Positions 49,582-57,794 of a stretch of 64,000 nt of DNA are shown in pieces. The translations under genes and the position numbers were made by a program. Source of the stretch: Candidatus Eiseniibacteriota bacterium (GTDB taxonomy: Bacteria > Orphanbacterota > Orphanbacteria > Orphanbacterales > Orphanbacteraceae); assembly GCA_029262235.1 (NCBI GenBank), contig JAJCZU010000002.1:186001-250000 (forward strand), in the 5' to 3' direction. The notes beneath the pieces are model-generated. The model saw only the letters and a list, made by a program, of their open reading frames with translations. It did no database searches and had not been told where the DNA came from. Numbering within the stretch: the first letter of the stretch is position 1; every line of letters begins with the position of its first letter.

Positions 49582-50460
49582 TCACGAGAGAGCGGCCTCC
49601 CACTTCATGCGAAAACCTGCGGGCATGCTGCCTGCATGGATCTCGCGGGCCGCGAGCGACTTTCCGATCTCGCCCGTGACCCGTTTCAACTCCCGATAGA
49701 TCGTGTGCTCCGGCTTTTGCACCGTCTCGGCGATCTCCTTCACCGACAACTGCATCATATAATAGGACTTCAGGATCAGTTTCGACTGCGGTTCGAGCGC
49801 GGCCAGCGTCTCGCGAAACGCGATCTCGACCTCCCGCGCCGCCGCGTCCTCGTCGGGGCCCGGCACGTCGGCCGGAAGCTCGAGAGGCCTCCCCTCGCCG
49901 TCGGGGCTTACAGGAGCGTCGAGCGAAAGGGCGGGCACCATGCGCATCAGGTCGTGGGCCAGATTCCAGAGGTTGTGGCTCGTAAGAACCCCGTTGATCG
50001 TGCGGACGGCATCGTGCACCTCCCCGAACGTCGTTTCCAGCCCGTGGCGCGCGCGCAACGTCTCGTACGCCTCCGCGAAGCTCATCCCCTCCCAATAGCA
50101 GTACTGGAAGACGAGTTGCTCGCGTTCGGGGAGCTTCTTGATCGGCTCGTTCAGCCGTTTCCGGCCCTGTTTCCCCCGAATAAAGTCGATGCAGAGGTTG
50201 CGCGAGACCGTCACGAGCCAGGTCGAGAGCTTGCAGGAGCCGCCCACCCGGTCCGGGTCGAACTTCAGCAGACGCCGCATGCCGTTTTCGTGGAGCTTCT
50301 CGCAGATATGCAGGTAGAGGTCGACACGACCGTCCTCGTCACGACGGAACTTCGCGGCGACCGAGAAGATCAGATTGGTGTATTCGTCCAGAAACTGGTC
50401 CCAGGCCTCTTCCGGGCTCTCGTGGAGCAGTCTGATGAGAGCGGCGTCGGGAATCGCCAT
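49582..50460 (-). CDS. ECF-like sigma-70 factor with two candidate region-4 modules
   Basis: 292 residues. ATG 50460 follows a GGGAGGGGG by 6 nt; a longer frame to 50619 would overlap the divergent promoter. Region 2 is 'EEAWDQFLDEYTNLIFSVAA' and 'KLSTWLVTVSRNLCIDFIRG'; a first helix-turn-helix candidate comes right after ('LPEREQLVFQYCYWEGMSFA'), and a second at the C-terminus ('LEPQSKLILKSYYMMQLSVK' then EIAETVQKPEHTIYREL). Paralogous to 21462-22310. Transcribed divergently from the lasso-leader peptide gene at 50645. Confidence 0.83.
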   Translation of the reverse strand: MAIPDAALIRLLHESPEEAWDQFLDEYTNLIFSVAAKFRRDEDGRVDLYLHICEKLHENGMRRLLKFDPDRVGGSCKLSTWLVTVSRNLCIDFIRGKQGRKRLNEPIKKLPEREQLVFQYCYWEGMSFAEAYETLRARHGLETTFGEVHDAVRTINGVLTSHNLWNLAHDLMRMVPALSLDAPVSPDGEGRPLELPADVPGPDEDAAAREVEIAFRETLAALEPQSKLILKSYYMMQLSVKEIAETVQKPEHTIYRELKRVTGEIGKSLAAREIHAGSMPAGFRMKWEAALS

Positions 50461-50559
50461 GGGCACCCCCTCCCGTTGCCTCACTATAGAGGGGCCGCGG
50501 AGCGGGTGCAAGAGAGGTCGAATGGGGCGCGCCTGCTCCTGACCGGCCCGAATCGGGAG

Positions 50560-50587
50560 TTGACTCCGTTGATCCCTCTGGTAGAAT
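50560..50587 (+). promoter_or_regulatory. Sigma-70-type promoter for the first leader-peptide gene
   Basis: TTGACT, 16-nt spacer, TAGAAT. Predicted start about 50594, giving a 50-nt leader to ATG 50645. Lies between the divergent sigma-factor gene and the peptide gene. Confidence 0.65.
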
Positions 50588-50644
50588 GCGGGCAGCAAGG
50601 CAACAGGGAAACACTCCAATATTCAGAATTGCGGGATAAGTACA

Positions 50645-50761
50645 ATGGATAGAAAGTCTTACGAAAAACCTTCGGTGACGAAGCACGGATCCTTGAAAGA
50701 AATCACGCTGACTTCCTTCAGCCGGGCGGACGACGCGCAGAGCGTGGAGGAGTCCTCCTGA
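50645..50761 (+). CDS. Lasso-type leader peptide-containing RiPP precursor (copy 1)
   Basis: 38 residues. Residues 6-24 read YEKPSVTKHGSLKEITLTS, which fits the lasso-peptide leader pattern Y-x2-P-x-[LV]-x3-G-x5-T recognised by RRE (PqqD-like) proteins. The tail after TSF (SRADDAQSVEESS) is acidic and unrelated to that of the second copy, as expected for a core peptide. If the core starts two residues after Thr21, Asp lies at positions 7 and 8, where lasso rings close, but the first residue is not the usual Gly/Ala/Ser/Cys. Own promoter upstream and a strong terminator downstream. No maturation enzyme in the window. Confidence 0.75.
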   Translation: MDRKSYEKPSVTKHGSLKEITLTSFSRADDAQSVEESS

Positions 50762-50804
50762 TCGGGTGAGTGGACGATTCGTGTACGTCAGTAGAAATAA
50801 GAAG

Positions 50805-50833
50805 AGGGAGAGGCTCGGCCCTCTCCCTTTTTC
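50805..50833 (+). terminator. Bidirectional intrinsic terminator after peptide gene 1
   Basis: 9-bp stem AGGGAGAGG / CCTCTCCCT with 6-nt loop followed by TTTTTC on the plus strand. On the minus strand it could also end transcription coming from the tiny gene at 50883-50963. Confidence 0.88.
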
Positions 50834-50882
50834 TGTTCTTGAGATAGCAGGCGGCCCCTCCGGACCCCGCGAGGCGCTCGTT

Positions 50883-50963
50883 CTAGACTGCCGCCAGTGC
50901 GAAGCAGGTGAATCCGAGCAGGTAGATCATGTAAATGAGGCCGTGTCCCGTGCGCGTTTCCAT
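50883..50963 (-). CDS. Putative 26-residue membrane peptide
   Basis: Perfect AGGAGG (50970-50975) 6 nt upstream of an ATG, then 26 codons and TAG. After a short polar start (METRTGHG) the peptide is almost wholly hydrophobic (LIYMIYLLGFTCFALAAV), enough for one membrane span. Convergent with the first leader-peptide gene, with the bidirectional terminator between. No homolog recalled. The ribosome site is among the best in the window, which is why I call it; it remains a short ORF without other proof. Confidence 0.5.
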   Translation of the reverse strand: METRTGHGLIYMIYLLGFTCFALAAV

Positions 50964-51063
50964 TGAAATCCTCCTGAAAAAGTGGCGTCCTGAATGACTG
51001 ATGTCGCCTTATCGGAGGGGGGCGGAGAGAAGTTGCGCGAGGTTTTCAGGCACGCGCAAATCC

Positions 51064-51093
51064 TTGCCTGATAACGCAATCCTGTGGTATAGT
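51064..51093 (+). promoter_or_regulatory. Promoter for the large Ig-repeat protein gene
   Basis: TTGCCT, 18-nt spacer, TATAGT. Predicted start about 51100, 43 nt before the ATG at 51143, which has GGAGG 6 nt upstream. Confidence 0.5.
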
Positions 51094-51142
51094 TCAGCCA
51101 ATCGGAATTCTTGCCCAAATCTAATAAATCTCGGAGGTTACT

Positions 51143-54100
51143 ATGCGATCTTGGATAGAGAAGGGGATCGGTCTCCTGTTCCTGACTATGTTCCTGGGAA
51201 TGTCTGTGGTCCCGGCCCTCGGGCAGTCAGTTGGGATGGACCAGAACGGCAATTTGACTTGTGAGGTTGGAGAATCGGGCATCGTGAACGCGGTGCAAGG
51301 TCAGCAATACTCGATCGACTTCGTTCTCGAGAACTTCCCGGACCCGCTTTACAGTGTTGGTCTCTTCTTCGGTACGCCCGACGCGAGTGCAGTCTCGAAT
51401 GTGAGTTTCGCGTTCAATACCGGTTACTCCAGCTGGACTTTGACTGCGATAAAAACACCCCTGGACACAGAAATGACGGCCGGATTCCTTGCATACCGCA
51501 CGGCCAATGGTGCGGCTTATACGACGGCAGCGACGGACTTCAGCTTCAATTCTCCACAATCGGACCCGTTGGTGGGGACGCTGACTTTCACAGCGGAAAT
51601 CACCGGTTGTATTAGCTGGGGAATCGATCCCGGCGACGGTCTTTCTCTTGGTTCCGCGTTCTTCGACACGAACTTCAACCAATTCGCGGTGCCCGCATGC
51701 GCGCCGAACGTCTGCACCGGCGGCGATCCGCTCGCGATCGACGACACCGACCCGGCGTGTCCGATCGGCAACGCGAAGAACGGCGACTCGTACAGCGGCG
51801 CGACCTTCCTCGCGACCGGCGGCGTTCCGCCTTATTCGTGGTCGCAGACCGGCCTGCCGAGCGGCATGGATATCAACAGCGGAACGGGCGCGATCGAAGG
51901 AACGCCGAGCGATACGCCCGGCAATTTCCCGTTCACCGTTACAGTGACGGATGACGAAGGAAACACGAAGGCTTCGGAGCAGCGTTCGTGCTCGCTCACA
52001 CTCGATCCGGCCGATCTCGCCGTCAGCACCAACGCCCCGACCTGCCCGCTTCCGAACGGGAAAGTCGGCGTGTTCTATGACGGCCCGGCTTTCACGGCGA
52101 CAGGCGGCGTTCCGCCATACACGTGGGACATCTCTTCGAACAACGCGCACCCGGGCCTCGCCATGGGCGGCGCGACGGGCAAAATCACGGGAACGCCGAC
52201 CGTGTTCGGTTCGCGCACGTATACCATTCGCGTGACGGATGACAACCAGAACACGGCAACGCGCCAGTGCGGCCTCGAGATCGATCCCGCGGATCTGGTT
52301 CTCGGCGGCGGCGACTGCCCGTTCAAGCTCGAAATCAATCAGGCGATGTCGTCGAGCCAGTTCACGGCTTCGGGCGGAATACCGCCATACAGCTGGGACG
52401 CCAACGGGCTTCCGAACGGTGTTTCGATCAACGGCACCGGTGTCCTTTCCGGCACGCCTTCACAGTCGGGCAGCTTCCCGGCCGAAATCATCGTAAGCGA
52501 CAGCGACAATCCGACGGTGTCGGACACTCTGACGTGCCAGATCGACGTCAACGTTGCGCCGCTTGTGATCAATACGCAGGACCCGATATGCCCGCTTCCG
52601 GATGGTGATGTCGATGAGTTGTACTCGCCCACGCAGAAGGGTGGGCTCGGCACAGGTATCACGTTCATGGCGACGGGCGGGATACCGCCTTACGAGTGGT
52701 CGGCGTCCGGGCTTCCGCAGGGCATGGGCATCGACATCAATTCGGGTGAAATCGGTGGAACGCCGACGCAGAGCGGCGGATTCGCGTTCACGGTCTTCGT
52801 TGATGACTCCGAGGTTGCCACCGGAAAAGCGCAGGCTTCGCGCCAGTGCTCGCTCTATGTTAACCCGGCTGATGGTGGCGTCTCGGTTGGCGATGACGAC
52901 AAGCTCAGCGGCGCACCCGGCGACACGGTTTACTTCCACTTCCTCGTCGAGAGCTCCTCGGGCGCGGCGACTTCATACAATATGAGCGCGTTCACGTCGA
53001 ACGGCTTCAGCGCGACGATCACCGGCGGAACGACACTGAACCTCGGTGCGTCAGGTGACTCGTTGATCGAGGTCTGCGTCGCCATTCCTGGTGGCGTAAG
53101 CTGCGACGACGCAAACGATGTCGTGACGCTCGTCGTCACGCGCGCCGACGACGACAACATTTCGGATCAGGGAACCGCGCAGCTCAACATCGACTTCGAA
53201 AAAGGCGTCGATGTTGTCGTGCAGAAGAACGGGCTCTGTGCTTTCCCTGGCCAGGTGAAGAGCGAGTTCTACAAGATTTACAACACCGGGGACTGCGAGC
53301 AGACGTACAGTCTCTCTTCGTCGAACTCCGCGGGCTGGCCGCAGGATGCGCCGAAATCGGTGACGATTCCGGGCATGGACAGCGCGCAGGTCCAGGTGGA
53401 CGTGACGCCGCCGTCGAATACGGAGTGCACGGATACGAGTGTGGTGCGGCTGACAGCGACATGCAATACGGAATCTGATGTTACGGACAGCGATTCCATT
53501 ACGGCCTTCATCTGTGCCGTGCTCGGCGTGGATGTCACCGGGCCCGCCAATCAGAACGCGGCGCCGGGCGATACGGTCGAGTACTGCTTCACGGTCTCGA
53601 ATACCGGAAACTGTGACGCCACATTCGAGGTCGATCTTGACCTCGGCCTGTGGCAGGTAATCAATGATCTGACGGATCCGTCGAAGTCCCTCTTCGTCGA
53701 GATTCCGGCGTTCGGCGACACGACCTTCTGTGTGGAGCACATCGTTCCGGAGGATGCCCAGGAAGGCGACGACGACAGCTTCTGCCTTGTCGCGCAGCTT
53801 GGTGTGTCGAATGCTTCCAAGGGGATCCCCTCCGACTCCGCATGCGTAACGACGACGGTATCGGGTGCGGCATGCGTTGCCGATTTCTCGCTCGAGTTCA
53901 TCGGGTACACGGCCGCGCAGCCGGACGACTTCGAACTGAAGAGCAGTCTCGGCATCCCGAGCTTCGACCCGGGCGAAACGTTCGGCATGCTCTTCAGTCT
54001 GACCAACAACAGCGGCACTCCGGACTCGTACGATATTTCGTACGACACGGAGCTCGGCTGGGATGTCCAGCTTCCGTTCACGGAAACGGGCAAGTTCACG

Positions 54101-55312
54101 GGCAAGCAGCAGATCGAAGTTCTGGTCACGGTACCGGAAGACGCCGAGTGCTCGGACACCGAAATCCTGCCACGTGGAGGTACCGGATTCCCGGGCGTTG
54201 AGACGGTGACACTCGCCGCCACGTCCCGGAACTGCGATACGCAGGCGACAGAAATGGCGAGCGCCGACGCCGGCGTGAACGCGTTCTGCATCATGGACAT
54301 CGAGTTCCTGACGTCCGACCAGATCGGGGCTCCGGGCGATACGCTCGTGTACAGCTTCGAGGTTACGAACATCGGAAACTGTGCCGGCTTCTTCAACGGC
54401 GAGGTCTTCTCGACATGGGACGTTTCGCAGTCTGTCGTTCCCGTCAAACTGGGTCCGGGCGAGTCGGCGAAGTACAACATCGGACATATCGTGCCGAAGA
54501 ACGCCGTTACCGGGGATGAGGACAACCTGGAGATCTGCGTATACTGTGACGAGGACGACGACAACGATATCGATCCTCCACTCAAGGCCAGTCGTAAAGG
54601 TGACCCGACGGGATTCTTCGACAGCTGTGACGACGTGACCTCGCGCGTCTCGACCGATTGCGCGCAGGGACAGCCGGTGCTGCAGCTGGGCGGCTTCCAG
54701 ACTCTGAATTACGACGGCCGCTTCTGGGAAGTGCAGGTCGCGATGACGAACAACGGTCCGGGTACGGCGAAGAATGTGAACGCCATGATGGACAGCGACA
54801 TCGAATGGCTGATCATCAGTGACGCGGATTGCTCCTACGGCGATCTCGGCGATGGCGCGACGAGCTACGGCGTTGACAGCTATACGTTCGACCTGCTGAA
54901 CTACCCGGGTGGATCGTTCAACGTCTGGTTCGACGTAACATACACGGACACGTGCGAATCGCAGCAGTACACGGTGCGCCTCGATCCGGAGTTCGTCGAT
55001 CCGACGGCGGATACGGAGACCAGGTCCGTGCCGTCGCGCATGGTGCTGCATCAGAACGTGCCGAACCCGTTCAACCCGCTCACGAAGATCACGTTCGATC
55101 TTCCCGAGGGGGGCCGGGCTCATCTCGCGATCTACAACGCGGCCGGACAGCAGATCAAGACCATCGTGAACGGGCATCTGTCGGCTGGCACCCATTCCTT
55201 CGAATGGAGAGGTAAAGACAGTCGCGGCAAGGATATGCCTTCGGGGACCTACTTCTACAGCCTTTCGGCTGAGGGGCGGGACGAGACCCGGCGCATGGTC
55301 CTGATCCGTTAA
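51143..55312 (+). CDS. Giant secreted protein with putative-Ig repeats and sorting-type C-terminal domain
   Basis: 1389 residues. Signal peptide (LLFLTMFLGMSVVPALGQ). An N-terminal cohesin-like region (30-190) is followed by four He_PIG/putative-Ig repeats of about 95 residues, each with 'ATGGVPPYSW..GLP.G' and 'G.I.GTP...G...FTV.V.D' and a conserved Cys pair. About five beta-sandwich units come next, marked by turns such as 'VSNTGNCDATFEVDL' and 'VTNIGNCAGFFNGEV'. The C-terminus is FlgD-Ig/type IX-like ('QNVPNPFNPLTKITFDLP', 'GTYFYSLSAEGRDETRRMVL'). No catalytic motif, so probably a surface adhesin or matrix protein. The first 100 codons are richer in A and T than the rest. Confidence 0.87.
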   Translation: MRSWIEKGIGLLFLTMFLGMSVVPALGQSVGMDQNGNLTCEVGESGIVNAVQGQQYSIDFVLENFPDPLYSVGLFFGTPDASAVSNVSFAFNTGYSSWTLTAIKTPLDTEMTAGFLAYRTANGAAYTTAATDFSFNSPQSDPLVGTLTFTAEITGCISWGIDPGDGLSLGSAFFDTNFNQFAVPACAPNVCTGGDPLAIDDTDPACPIGNAKNGDSYSGATFLATGGVPPYSWSQTGLPSGMDINSGTGAIEGTPSDTPGNFPFTVTVTDDEGNTKASEQRSCSLTLDPADLAVSTNAPTCPLPNGKVGVFYDGPAFTATGGVPPYTWDISSNNAHPGLAMGGATGKITGTPTVFGSRTYTIRVTDDNQNTATRQCGLEIDPADLVLGGGDCPFKLEINQAMSSSQFTASGGIPPYSWDANGLPNGVSINGTGVLSGTPSQSGSFPAEIIVSDSDNPTVSDTLTCQIDVNVAPLVINTQDPICPLPDGDVDELYSPTQKGGLGTGITFMATGGIPPYEWSASGLPQGMGIDINSGEIGGTPTQSGGFAFTVFVDDSEVATGKAQASRQCSLYVNPADGGVSVGDDDKLSGAPGDTVYFHFLVESSSGAATSYNMSAFTSNGFSATITGGTTLNLGASGDSLIEVCVAIPGGVSCDDANDVVTLVVTRADDDNISDQGTAQLNIDFEKGVDVVVQKNGLCAFPGQVKSEFYKIYNTGDCEQTYSLSSSNSAGWPQDAPKSVTIPGMDSAQVQVDVTPPSNTECTDTSVVRLTATCNTESDVTDSDSITAFICAVLGVDVTGPANQNAAPGDTVEYCFTVSNTGNCDATFEVDLDLGLWQVINDLTDPSKSLFVEIPAFGDTTFCVEHIVPEDAQEGDDDSFCLVAQLGVSNASKGIPSDSACVTTTVSGAACVADFSLEFIGYTAAQPDDFELKSSLGIPSFDPGETFGMLFSLTNNSGTPDSYDISYDTELGWDVQLPFTETGKFTGKQQIEVLVTVPEDAECSDTEILPRGGTGFPGVETVTLAATSRNCDTQATEMASADAGVNAFCIMDIEFLTSDQIGAPGDTLVYSFEVTNIGNCAGFFNGEVFSTWDVSQSVVPVKLGPGESAKYNIGHIVPKNAVTGDEDNLEICVYCDEDDDNDIDPPLKASRKGDPTGFFDSCDDVTSRVSTDCAQGQPVLQLGGFQTLNYDGRFWEVQVAMTNNGPGTAKNVNAMMDSDIEWLIISDADCSYGDLGDGATSYGVDSYTFDLLNYPGGSFNVWFDVTYTDTCESQQYTVRLDPEFVDPTADTETRSVPSRMVLHQNVPNPFNPLTKITFDLPEGGRAHLAIYNAAGQQIKTIVNGHLSAGTHSFEWRGKDSRGKDMPSGTYFYSLSAEGRDETRRMVLIR

Positions 55313-55326
55313 CATTAGAATGTGAG

Positions 55327-55355
55327 TTGACGGGATAATTGCGATATGCTAAAAT
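55327..55355 (+). promoter_or_regulatory. Sigma-70-type promoter for the second leader-peptide gene
   Basis: TTGACG, 17-nt spacer, TAAAAT, with TGC before the -10 (extended -10). Predicted start about 55362, 25 nt before the ATG at 55387. Confidence 0.7.
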
Positions 55356-55386
55356 TCTTACAACTCATGAATCGGGGGAAGAGCGC

Positions 55387-55482
55387 ATGAAAAAGAAAAC
55401 GTACGAGAAGCCCCGTGTTGAGAAGCACGGTACTCTCAAGGAAATCACGCTGACGTCATTTCAGCCGCCGCCGCCTAAATAG
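55387..55482 (+). CDS. Lasso-type leader peptide-containing RiPP precursor (copy 2)
   Basis: 31 residues, ATG with GGGGAAG 6 nt upstream. Residues 6-24, YEKPRVEKHGTLKEITLTS, are nearly the same as in copy 1 (15 of 19 identical) and fit the lasso leader pattern with Tyr6, Pro9, Val11, Gly15 and Thr21. The remainder is only FQPPPPK: proline-rich, with no Asp or Glu for a lasso ring. So either the product is not a lasso, or the conserved block itself is the functional part. Own promoter upstream, hairpin downstream. Confidence 0.75.
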   Translation: MKKKTYEKPRVEKHGTLKEITLTSFQPPPPK

Positions 55483-55523: not shown

Positions 55524-55553
55524 GAAACGGGGGGGCGCATGCCTCCCCGTTTC
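55524..55553 (+). terminator. Hairpin after peptide gene 2, weak terminator
   Basis: 12-bp stem (GAAACGGGG paired with CCCCGTTTC, extended by GGG/CCT with one G-T pair), 6-nt loop. No T-run follows, so termination is uncertain. Confidence 0.5.
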
Positions 55554-55604: not shown

Positions 55605-57794
55605 ATGAAAAAATTCACGTTTTCCTATCTGCTGGCTGTTCTGCTGCTCGGACCGGTTGCCGGTCATGCCGGGTATTCCTCGTGGACCGTCGAAGGCGGG
55701 CCGTTCGGCGCGCGCGTGCACGACTTCTTCGAGATGCCCGATGACGCGCGTACGATCTATATCGGGACGGAGCGCGCGGGCGTTCTCGTATCCCGCGGCG
55801 ACGGCAAGGGGTGGGTGCCGCGCAACAACGGCTTTGCGACCACGGACGTTCTCACGATCACGGCCGATCCCACCGACCTCGACTCGATGTTCGCAGGCAC
55901 GGGCGGCGGCGGCGTGTATCGGAGCGCGAACCGGGGCGACAGCTGGTTCCCGGCAAACACCGGCCTCCCGAGCCTGAACGTGCGTGACCTTACGTTCGAC
56001 GCGGCGGGATTCGCGCTGTACGCAGCTACAGGGGGCGCCGGCGTCTACAAGAGCGTCAACCGCGGCGCCAGCTGGGTTTCCGCCAGCAGCGGCCTCTTCG
56101 AAACTTCGATTTACAGTATTACTTATGCCCCAAGCGACCCGACGCGCTGGTACGCCGGTACAGCGCAGGGCGTCTTTCGTTCGACAAACGGCGCGGCCTC
56201 CTGGTCGCTCGTTTCTGCCGGGCTTACAACCACGCCGATCGCGGACGTCATCGTCGATCCCGCAAACAGAGACCTCGTGTACGCCGCCTCGGCGGGCGGG
56301 GGCGTGTTCCGGTCGACGAACGGCGGCTTGAACTGGGCGCCGTACAACACCGGCATGGGCAGCGTGTACGTGGAAGAGATCGAAGCGAACCCCGGGAACT
56401 CCAGCGAACTGTGGGCCGCCTCGCGAGTGGGCGTATTCGGCAGCCCGGACGGGGGCGCGAACTGGACGCTTCAGAATGCCGGGATCGCCGACACCGTCAG
56501 CTATGCGCTGCACGTAACGGCCGACACGCTCTTCGCCGGATCGTACTGGGAGGGCGTTCACTGCACGCCGAACGCGGGTACCCCGTCGTGGACTCCGCTC
56601 GTGTCCGGGCTTTCGAATCGCTTCGTCTGGGAAATCACACCTTCGCCCCACAACCCGGCTGTCGTATGGGCGGCTTCGTACGGCGGCGTTTCGGTTTCGA
56701 CCGACACGGGCTGGACCTGGACTGAGTCTTCTACCGGGATCGGCGTTTTCGATCTCCGCACTGTGCAGTTCGATCCGAACGATGCGAATGTCATGCTCGC
56801 CGGAGCTTTCTACGGGGGCGTGCGTCGCTCGACGAACGGCGGCGCGAACTGGACCGTATCGTCCGGGCTCGGCGCGGGCACGGTGACCGACATCCTGTAC
56901 AAGCAGGGCTCGAGCACCGTGGCAATCGCGGCTACGTACAACGGGCCGTATCGCAGCGTGAACGGCGGCGTCACGTGGACGCCTTCGTCGTCGGGCATGG
57001 GGAACCTGAAAGTGTGGGGCCTCGCGCGGACGCCGGCCGACACGGATCTGCTGATGGCAGGCACGTACGGCGACGGCGTATTCCGATCCGACAATTTCGG
57101 CCAGACCTGGACGTCGGTTCCGATGCCGGATGATTTCGTGCGTGCGCTCGCGATCGATCCCCTGAACGCCGACGTGATGTACGCCGGCGGCTACTATCAG
57201 GACTCGGGGCTCGGCGGCGTCTACCGTTCGACGGACGGCGGCGCGAGCTGGACACCGAAGAACAGCGGTCTCGGCAACTTCAGCATCTGGGGATTGACGA
57301 TCGATCCCGTGAACTCCGCGCACCTCCTTGCGGCAACGGCCGACGGCATCTACGAAACCTACGACTCCGGTGACTCGTGGACCGACTTCTCGGTCGGCCT
57401 GTTCGCACGCGACGTGCGCTCGATCGGTTACGTCGCCGATCGACTGGTGGCGGGAACGTACGGAGGGTCCGCTCCCTGGTACGAAGAGGCCACGGTCGCA
57501 GTAGGCGAAGGCACGCCCCGGATCGCGTTCGGACTGCAGAATGCGCCGAATCCTTTCAATCCGTTCACGACTTTTCACGCGGATGTCGCGGCCGGCCCCG
57601 TGCGCCTCGACGTATTCGACGTACGAGGCCGTCTTGTCCGCACGCTCGTGGCAGGAAACCGCCCCGGCGGCCTGCTGCGCGTCGACTGGGACGGAACCGA
57701 CGAGCGCGGACGCTCCCTGCCGAGCGGCGTCTATTTCGGCCGCCTCGAAACCACGGCGGGCACAGAGTCCCGCACCCTTCATCTGATCCGCTGA
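55605..57794 (+). CDS. Secreted BNR/sortilin-like beta-propeller protein with sorting-type C-terminal domain
   Basis: 729 residues. ATG 55605 gives the signal peptide (KKFTFSYLLAVLLLGPVAG); a TTG-led frame from 55509 would run through the hairpin. Residues 30-640 are about a dozen blades with 'G..VYRS.D.G.SW...N.GL' patterns ('GGVYRSANRGDSWFPANTGL', 'GVFRSDNFGQTWTSVP'), as in VPS10/photosystem-stability/BNR propellers. A FlgD-Ig-like domain closes it ('QNAPNPFNPFTTFHADV', 'SGVYFGRLETTAGTESRT'). No sialidase Arg triad identified, so binding rather than catalysis is likely. Confidence 0.86.
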   Translation: MKKFTFSYLLAVLLLGPVAGHAGYSSWTVEGGPFGARVHDFFEMPDDARTIYIGTERAGVLVSRGDGKGWVPRNNGFATTDVLTITADPTDLDSMFAGTGGGGVYRSANRGDSWFPANTGLPSLNVRDLTFDAAGFALYAATGGAGVYKSVNRGASWVSASSGLFETSIYSITYAPSDPTRWYAGTAQGVFRSTNGAASWSLVSAGLTTTPIADVIVDPANRDLVYAASAGGGVFRSTNGGLNWAPYNTGMGSVYVEEIEANPGNSSELWAASRVGVFGSPDGGANWTLQNAGIADTVSYALHVTADTLFAGSYWEGVHCTPNAGTPSWTPLVSGLSNRFVWEITPSPHNPAVVWAASYGGVSVSTDTGWTWTESSTGIGVFDLRTVQFDPNDANVMLAGAFYGGVRRSTNGGANWTVSSGLGAGTVTDILYKQGSSTVAIAATYNGPYRSVNGGVTWTPSSSGMGNLKVWGLARTPADTDLLMAGTYGDGVFRSDNFGQTWTSVPMPDDFVRALAIDPLNADVMYAGGYYQDSGLGGVYRSTDGGASWTPKNSGLGNFSIWGLTIDPVNSAHLLAATADGIYETYDSGDSWTDFSVGLFARDVRSIGYVADRLVAGTYGGSAPWYEEATVAVGEGTPRIAFGLQNAPNPFNPFTTFHADVAAGPVRLDVFDVRGRLVRTLVAGNRPGGLLRVDWDGTDERGRSLPSGVYFGRLETTAGTESRTLHLIR

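Follow-up and report, generated by a model that had tools for sequence, protein, structure and literature searches.

The closest described system to the one reported here is that of the linear polyphosphorylated peptides (LPPs), for which the lpp cluster of Paenibacillus alginolyticus codes for an RRE, an HprK-like kinase, an NTP transferase and an ABC exporter, with no cyclase (Popov et al. 2026, PMC13381572). The LPP precursors have the consensus YxxPxVLxHQxIxFETxxS; the leader is cleaved after the Thr, the Ser carries several phosphates added by LppK, and residues D70 and N33 of LppB hold the leader Tyr and Pro (PMC13381572). LPPs are, according to the authors, restricted to Bacillota (PMC13381572). 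When we searched the literature for other cyclase-less lasso-like clusters, only this LPP paper (PMC13381572) was found. Two types of lasso peptide system are also close. In Bradymonas sediminis, the bsf lasso cluster (PMC10368454) contains B1, B2, kinase, nucleotidyltransferase and ABC genes together with the cyclase BsfC; its core has Gly1 and Asp8, with an Ile at -2, and its kinase targets an internal Ser near the core start, aided by B1. Phosphorylated lasso peptides of the paeninodin/pseudomycoidin type (reviewed in PMC8498205) have an HPr-kinase homologue and a nucleotidyltransferase adjoining B1 and B2, and a cyclase, and their kinase modifies the C-terminal Ser.

Results

The window analysed here, a stretch of 64,000 nucleotides on contig C2 of a 4.47-Mb genome (G000), contains two precursor genes with a lasso-type leader, both on the + strand and spaced by 4.74 kb. 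They and their surroundings have the following features:

50560..50587, + strand: promoter-like site of copy 1, TTGACT-16-TAGAAT, 10/12 matches to a sigma70-like consensus
50645..50761, + strand: precursor gene copy 1, 38 aa, MDRKSYEKPSVTKHGSLKEITLTSFSRADDAQSVEESS; leader YEKPSVTKHGSLKEIT, then LTSFSRADDAQSVEESS; above the NF033521 cut-off
50801..50832, + strand: intrinsic-terminator-like hairpin 3' of copy 1, 13 pairs
51143..55312, + strand: secreted Ig-repeat protein (He_PIG) with a C-terminal FlgD_ig domain, next to the copy-2 site on the 5' side in 6 genomes
55327..55355, + strand: promoter-like site of copy 2, TTGACG-17-TAAAAT, 10/12 matches to a sigma70-like consensus
55387..55482, + strand: precursor gene copy 2, 31 aa, MKKKTYEKPRVEKHGTLKEITLTSFQPPPPK; leader YEKPRVEKHGTLKEIT, then LTSFQPPPPK; above the NF033521 cut-off
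55529..55548, + strand: terminator-like hairpin 3' of copy 2
55605..57794, + strand: Sortilin-Vps10/BNR-repeat protein with a C-terminal FlgD_ig domain, next to the copy-2 site on the 3' side in 6 genomes

An earlier, sequence-only reading of this DNA had described open reading frames of 38 and 31 codons about 4.7 kb apart, with a common lasso-type leader and a near-consensus promoter for each, and all of this was confirmed. The two peptides align over YEKPxVxKHGxLKEITLTSF and diverge beyond it. In the profile search that the reading had proposed, copies 1 and 2 scored 23.3 and 23.7 bits against NF033521 (lasso_leader_L3), for which the curated NCBIfam cut-off is 19, and genome-wide no third leader exceeded this cut-off. 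With copy 2 as the query against the whole genome, only copy 1 was matched besides copy 2 itself (E=1.3e-7), and no Pfam match was found for the window peptides. Shuffles of the promoter and terminator regions gave expectations of 0.2-0.3 promoters and 0.5-0.7 terminators. Since each copy has its own promoter match and hairpin, the two genes are probably each transcribed as a separate small mRNA.

Seven genomes of the phylum, from one family and five genera, were compared; all are draft assemblies and the named relatives are MAGs. Profile searches detected 11 leader-family members, spread over six of these genomes. G001, a congener of the window organism represented by a fragmented MAG, had none, but its contig C144 ends just upstream of the copy-1 position and the absence is uninformative. 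The synteny check showed a precursor at the copy-2 site, flanked by the Ig-repeat and Vps10/BNR genes, in six genomes (G000 with copy 2, G002, G003, G004, G005 and G006), and leader genes directly 5' of an RRE gene, between it and a NUDIX gene, for 4 of the 11 members (one in G002, one in G003 and two in G004). The distant-site leader is the sole leader gene found in G005 and G006, where the whole operon described below is kept. The two operon-linked genes of G004 are in tandem (L041:10518-10768, - strand), overlapping by ATGA directly 5' of the RRE gene, and their tails differ.

The residues Tyr, Pro(+3), Ile20, Thr(+15) and Ser(+18) are invariant in all 11 precursors, which have the Thr-x-x-Ser end in common, and His(+8) is present in 10 of them. 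Over the 19-codon leader, the comparison of copy 1 with copy 2 gave pS=0.78 and pN=0.14, and the 55 pairs among the 11 homologues gave pS=0.71 and pN=0.22. For the pair G005/G006, no nonsynonymous change was counted in the leader, against 9 nonsynonymous and 3 synonymous changes in the tail, where the per-site rates are equal. Judged from these substitution rates, the leader is under strong purifying selection and the core is free to vary, which bears out the RiPP-type leader with variable core of the sequence-only reading; both frames, kept in relatives with a constrained leader and a free tail, are real genes. Two operon-linked cores of different genera have the motif LYVG in common, DALYVGKEE in G002 (L030:8689-8832) and HELYVGDEL in G003 (L040:4617-4745), and the remainder of these two tails differs.

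We found an operon on contig C6 of the window genome (about 339.7-344.5 kb; L002 about 11.74-16.50 kb), preceded by a NUDIX gene, with the order RRE, HprK-like kinase, B2 protease, PF14907 nucleotidyltransferase, ABC ATPase and ABC-2 permease. The single PqqD-domain (RRE) match of the genome (PF05402, 2e-18) and its single Transglut_core3 (B2) match are close together there. In the same genome-wide searches no PqqD, B2 or Asn-synthase match was obtained on contig C2, in agreement with the earlier remark that the window holds no RRE, cyclase or leader protease. The precursor genes, which had been called orphans, are so locally but not genome-wide, and the trans-acting maturase that had been thought possible elsewhere is most likely this RRE-kinase-B2 operon, kept with identical gene order in 7/7 genomes. 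An RRE is thus present in the genome and the frames are conserved in relatives, the reverse of what had been named as refuting the RiPP reading. A contig search based on the kinase returned four loci, all from MAGs of this lineage. In the window genome no leader gene is present in the C6 operon, the gap 5' of the RRE having been checked, and no LppS-like peptidase was seen in the operon or the flanks examined. No Asn-synthetase homologue was found on C6 or in the operon of any of the 7 genomes, and synteny accordingly gave no dedicated cyclase.

The RRE residues N42 and D79 are invariant in the seven RREs and correspond, as read from the printed alignment, to N33 and D70 of LppB; the RRE profile scored TbiB1 at 39.8, PbaB1 at 34.7, TfuB1 at 31.6 and LppB at 22.2 bits. 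The B2 protease of C6 is above the NF033537 cut-off with Cys86, His121 and Glu133 conserved, and a sequence search returned no solved relative of it. The kinases retain the Walker A motif GxSGxGKS, an upstream His and an Asp-Asp pair, the last two of which we take to be typical of HprK. Their sequence match to HprK is weak, and Foldseek with the AlphaFold kinase model gave PEPCK-like top matches that were not significant. Since leader genes of one family stand at the operon head and at the distant fixed site, we infer that the window peptides are substrates of the C6 operon.

The system has the lasso-type YxxPx[L/V/I]...Thr leader with a discrete PqqD-type RRE and a B2 transglutaminase-like leader protease. 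The cores depart from the lasso pattern, in which residue 1 is usually Gly or small and Asp/Glu is found at 7-9: they are predicted to begin with T, I, V or L, with Gly in 0/11, and Asp/Glu at core positions 7-9 is present in 6 of the 11, copy 1 included, and absent from the other 5, copy 2 included. The missing N-terminal Gly, and the missing ring acid of copy 2, had both been seen in the sequence-only reading, whose doubt about a lasso product is upheld: with non-Gly cores, 5/11 without the ring acid and an operon without cyclase, the product is probably not a lasso peptide. Three Cys-less Asn-synthetase paralogues with the motif MAG[LIV]FG, 36-40% identical pairwise, are scattered in G000 and conserved in some relatives:

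C3:453882-455735 (L007): Cys-less Asn-synthetase homologue
C8:177475-179322 (L009): Cys-less Asn-synthetase homologue
C10:75778-77487 (L008): Cys-less Asn-synthetase homologue

For the one homologue tested, beta-lactam synthetase is the closest relative with a solved structure. Among the 7 genomes, this MAG[LIV]FG type was found only in G000, G001, G002 and G004, and different Cys-less types occur in G006. Only a glutamine-dependent Asn synthetase was found in G003, yet two leaders and the operon are present there; this counts against a trans cyclase, in a suggestive manner only since G003 is one 96%-complete MAG. A Cys-less homologue of SGIAG type is frame-broken in G005 (C1:116426, L095), and its G006 counterpart L092 is open.

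Discussion

It seems to us fairly probable that the C6 machinery, encoded in trans to its precursors, makes a linear, Ser-phosphorylated RiPP and is LPP-like in action. For each biochemical step, above all the phosphorylation and the linearity of the product, we propose the following order. The precursor would be made from the small mRNA of each copy, and its YxxPx[V/L/I] motif would be bound by the RRE. The kinase would phosphorylate the invariant Ser (Tyr+18; S24 in both copies), a modification favoured by the spacing of Thr and Ser, which is that of the LPP consensus where the Ser is polyphosphorylated by LppK. B2 would then cleave at the invariant Thr (Tyr+15) or one residue beyond, the nucleotidyltransferase would possibly decorate the phosphate, and the linear peptide with its variable tail would be exported by the ABC transporter. 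A short linear phosphorylated peptide is a more likely product than a lasso peptide. Against this proposal stand the three Cys-less Asn-synthetase homologues, which could act as trans cyclases, the Asp/Glu of 6/11 cores, a B2 protease of the lasso kind with no LppS-like peptidase near the operon, a C6 operon that has no leader gene of its own in the window genome, and a kinase that resembles HprK weakly by sequence with an uninformative fold model.

The new product class suggested in the sequence-only reading is too strong a claim, since the LPPs, published in 2026 (PMC13381572), already form a class that is centred on a kinase, has no cyclase and shows this same arrangement from leader to Ser; the novelty of the present system is that of a variant of the LPP class. 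Both combine an RRE, an HprK-like kinase, an NTP transferase and an ABC exporter in a cluster that lacks a cyclase, and both have precursors of similar size with a conserved leader and a variable tail, in which the Tyr, Pro, Val, His, Thr and Ser of the LPP consensus stand at identical spacing. The consensus residues L7, Q10, F14 and E15 are not shared (HG here for HQ, EIT for FET), a lasso-type B2 replaces the SpI-like LppS, the exporter is ABC-2 instead of MsbA-like, the RRE profile scores lasso RREs above LppB, the precursors are in trans, and the hosts are not Bacillota, the relatives being MAGs labelled Gemmatimonadetes, Candidatus Eisenbacteria or bacterium. Because of the B2 protease, the ABC-2 exporter, the non-Bacillota hosts and the RRE scores, we place the system as one that would act like an LPP system and do not class it as LPP. 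The bsf cluster has the same B1, B2, kinase, nucleotidyltransferase and ABC genes but differs by its cyclase and Gly1/Asp8 core, and, counted from the leader Tyr, its Ser3 lies one residue beyond the position of the Ser in the present precursors (PMC10368454). Compared with the C-terminal Ser modified in paeninodin and pseudomycoidin (PMC8498205), the invariant Ser is internal here, and only copy 1, G003_20 and G004_2 end in Ser.

A true lasso peptide, for which one of the enzymes at C3:453882, C8:177475 and C10:75778 would be a macrolactam synthetase acting in trans and closing the ring on Asp/Glu 7-9, with the kinase and nucleotidyltransferase tailoring the product as in paeninodin or bsf, is in our opinion unlikely. 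Its leader above the NF033521 cut-off, its RRE and B2 of lasso type, the ring acid in 6/11 cores including copy 1 and homologues that lack the glutaminase Cys and are nearest, among solved structures, to beta-lactam synthetase would all be accounted for; five cores, copy 2 among them, lack Asp/Glu at 7-9, no core begins with Gly, the operon is without cyclase in 7 genomes, and the homologue type is limited to G000, G001, G002 and G004, with G003 showing only the glutamine-dependent enzyme. Still less probable is that maturation of the window copies has ceased and that they serve as decoys or competitors which titrate the C6 RRE, the tail being irrelevant. A conserved leader with a free tail, the distance from the operon and tails of down to 7 residues after Ser24 are what such decoys would have, but the distant leader is the only known substrate in G005 and G006, where the operon is whole, and the invariant Ser lies outside the RRE-binding part. 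Chance open reading frames, suggested by the very short lengths and the absent Pfam match, are ruled out with near certainty by the own promoters and terminators and by frames conserved in 6/7 genomes, among which synonymous change is high and nonsynonymous change low.

Returning to the linear phosphorylated RiPP, we suggest more tentatively, as something that may well turn out otherwise, that these genomes hold a second, independently evolved lineage of such peptides outside Bacillota, in which the cyclase was lost and B2 kept, the Ser kinase and nucleotidyltransferase became defining, and precursors were relocated between secreted FlgD-tailed proteins, suggesting a cell-surface role. The cyclase may have been lost independently from a bsf-like lasso cluster, in which kinase, nucleotidyltransferase, B1 and B2 are likewise present. 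If this is true, the loss of the lasso cyclase with a switch to phosphorylated linear peptides occurred more than once, and lasso-leader frames reported as orphans can have their machinery in trans. Mining rules that require a cyclase, or a precursor adjoining the RRE, overlook such systems.

That the precursor gene keeps its place between the same two genes for secreted proteins offers a first handle on the biological role of the class. The FlgD_ig C-terminus is established in the window for both the Ig-repeat and the Vps10/BNR neighbour. The secreted neighbours may have a role in the pathway; the Ig-repeat protein (51143..55312) is not itself placed in it by any evidence. Copy 1 sits across the Ig-repeat gene from copy 2. 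Convergent with copy 1 is a 26-codon hydrophobic frame, METRTGHGLIYMIYLLGFTCFALAAV (50883-50963, - strand), with an AGGAGG ribosome-binding site and no relatives among the related loci examined, and divergent from copy 1 is a gene for a sigma-70 family factor (49582-50619, - strand).
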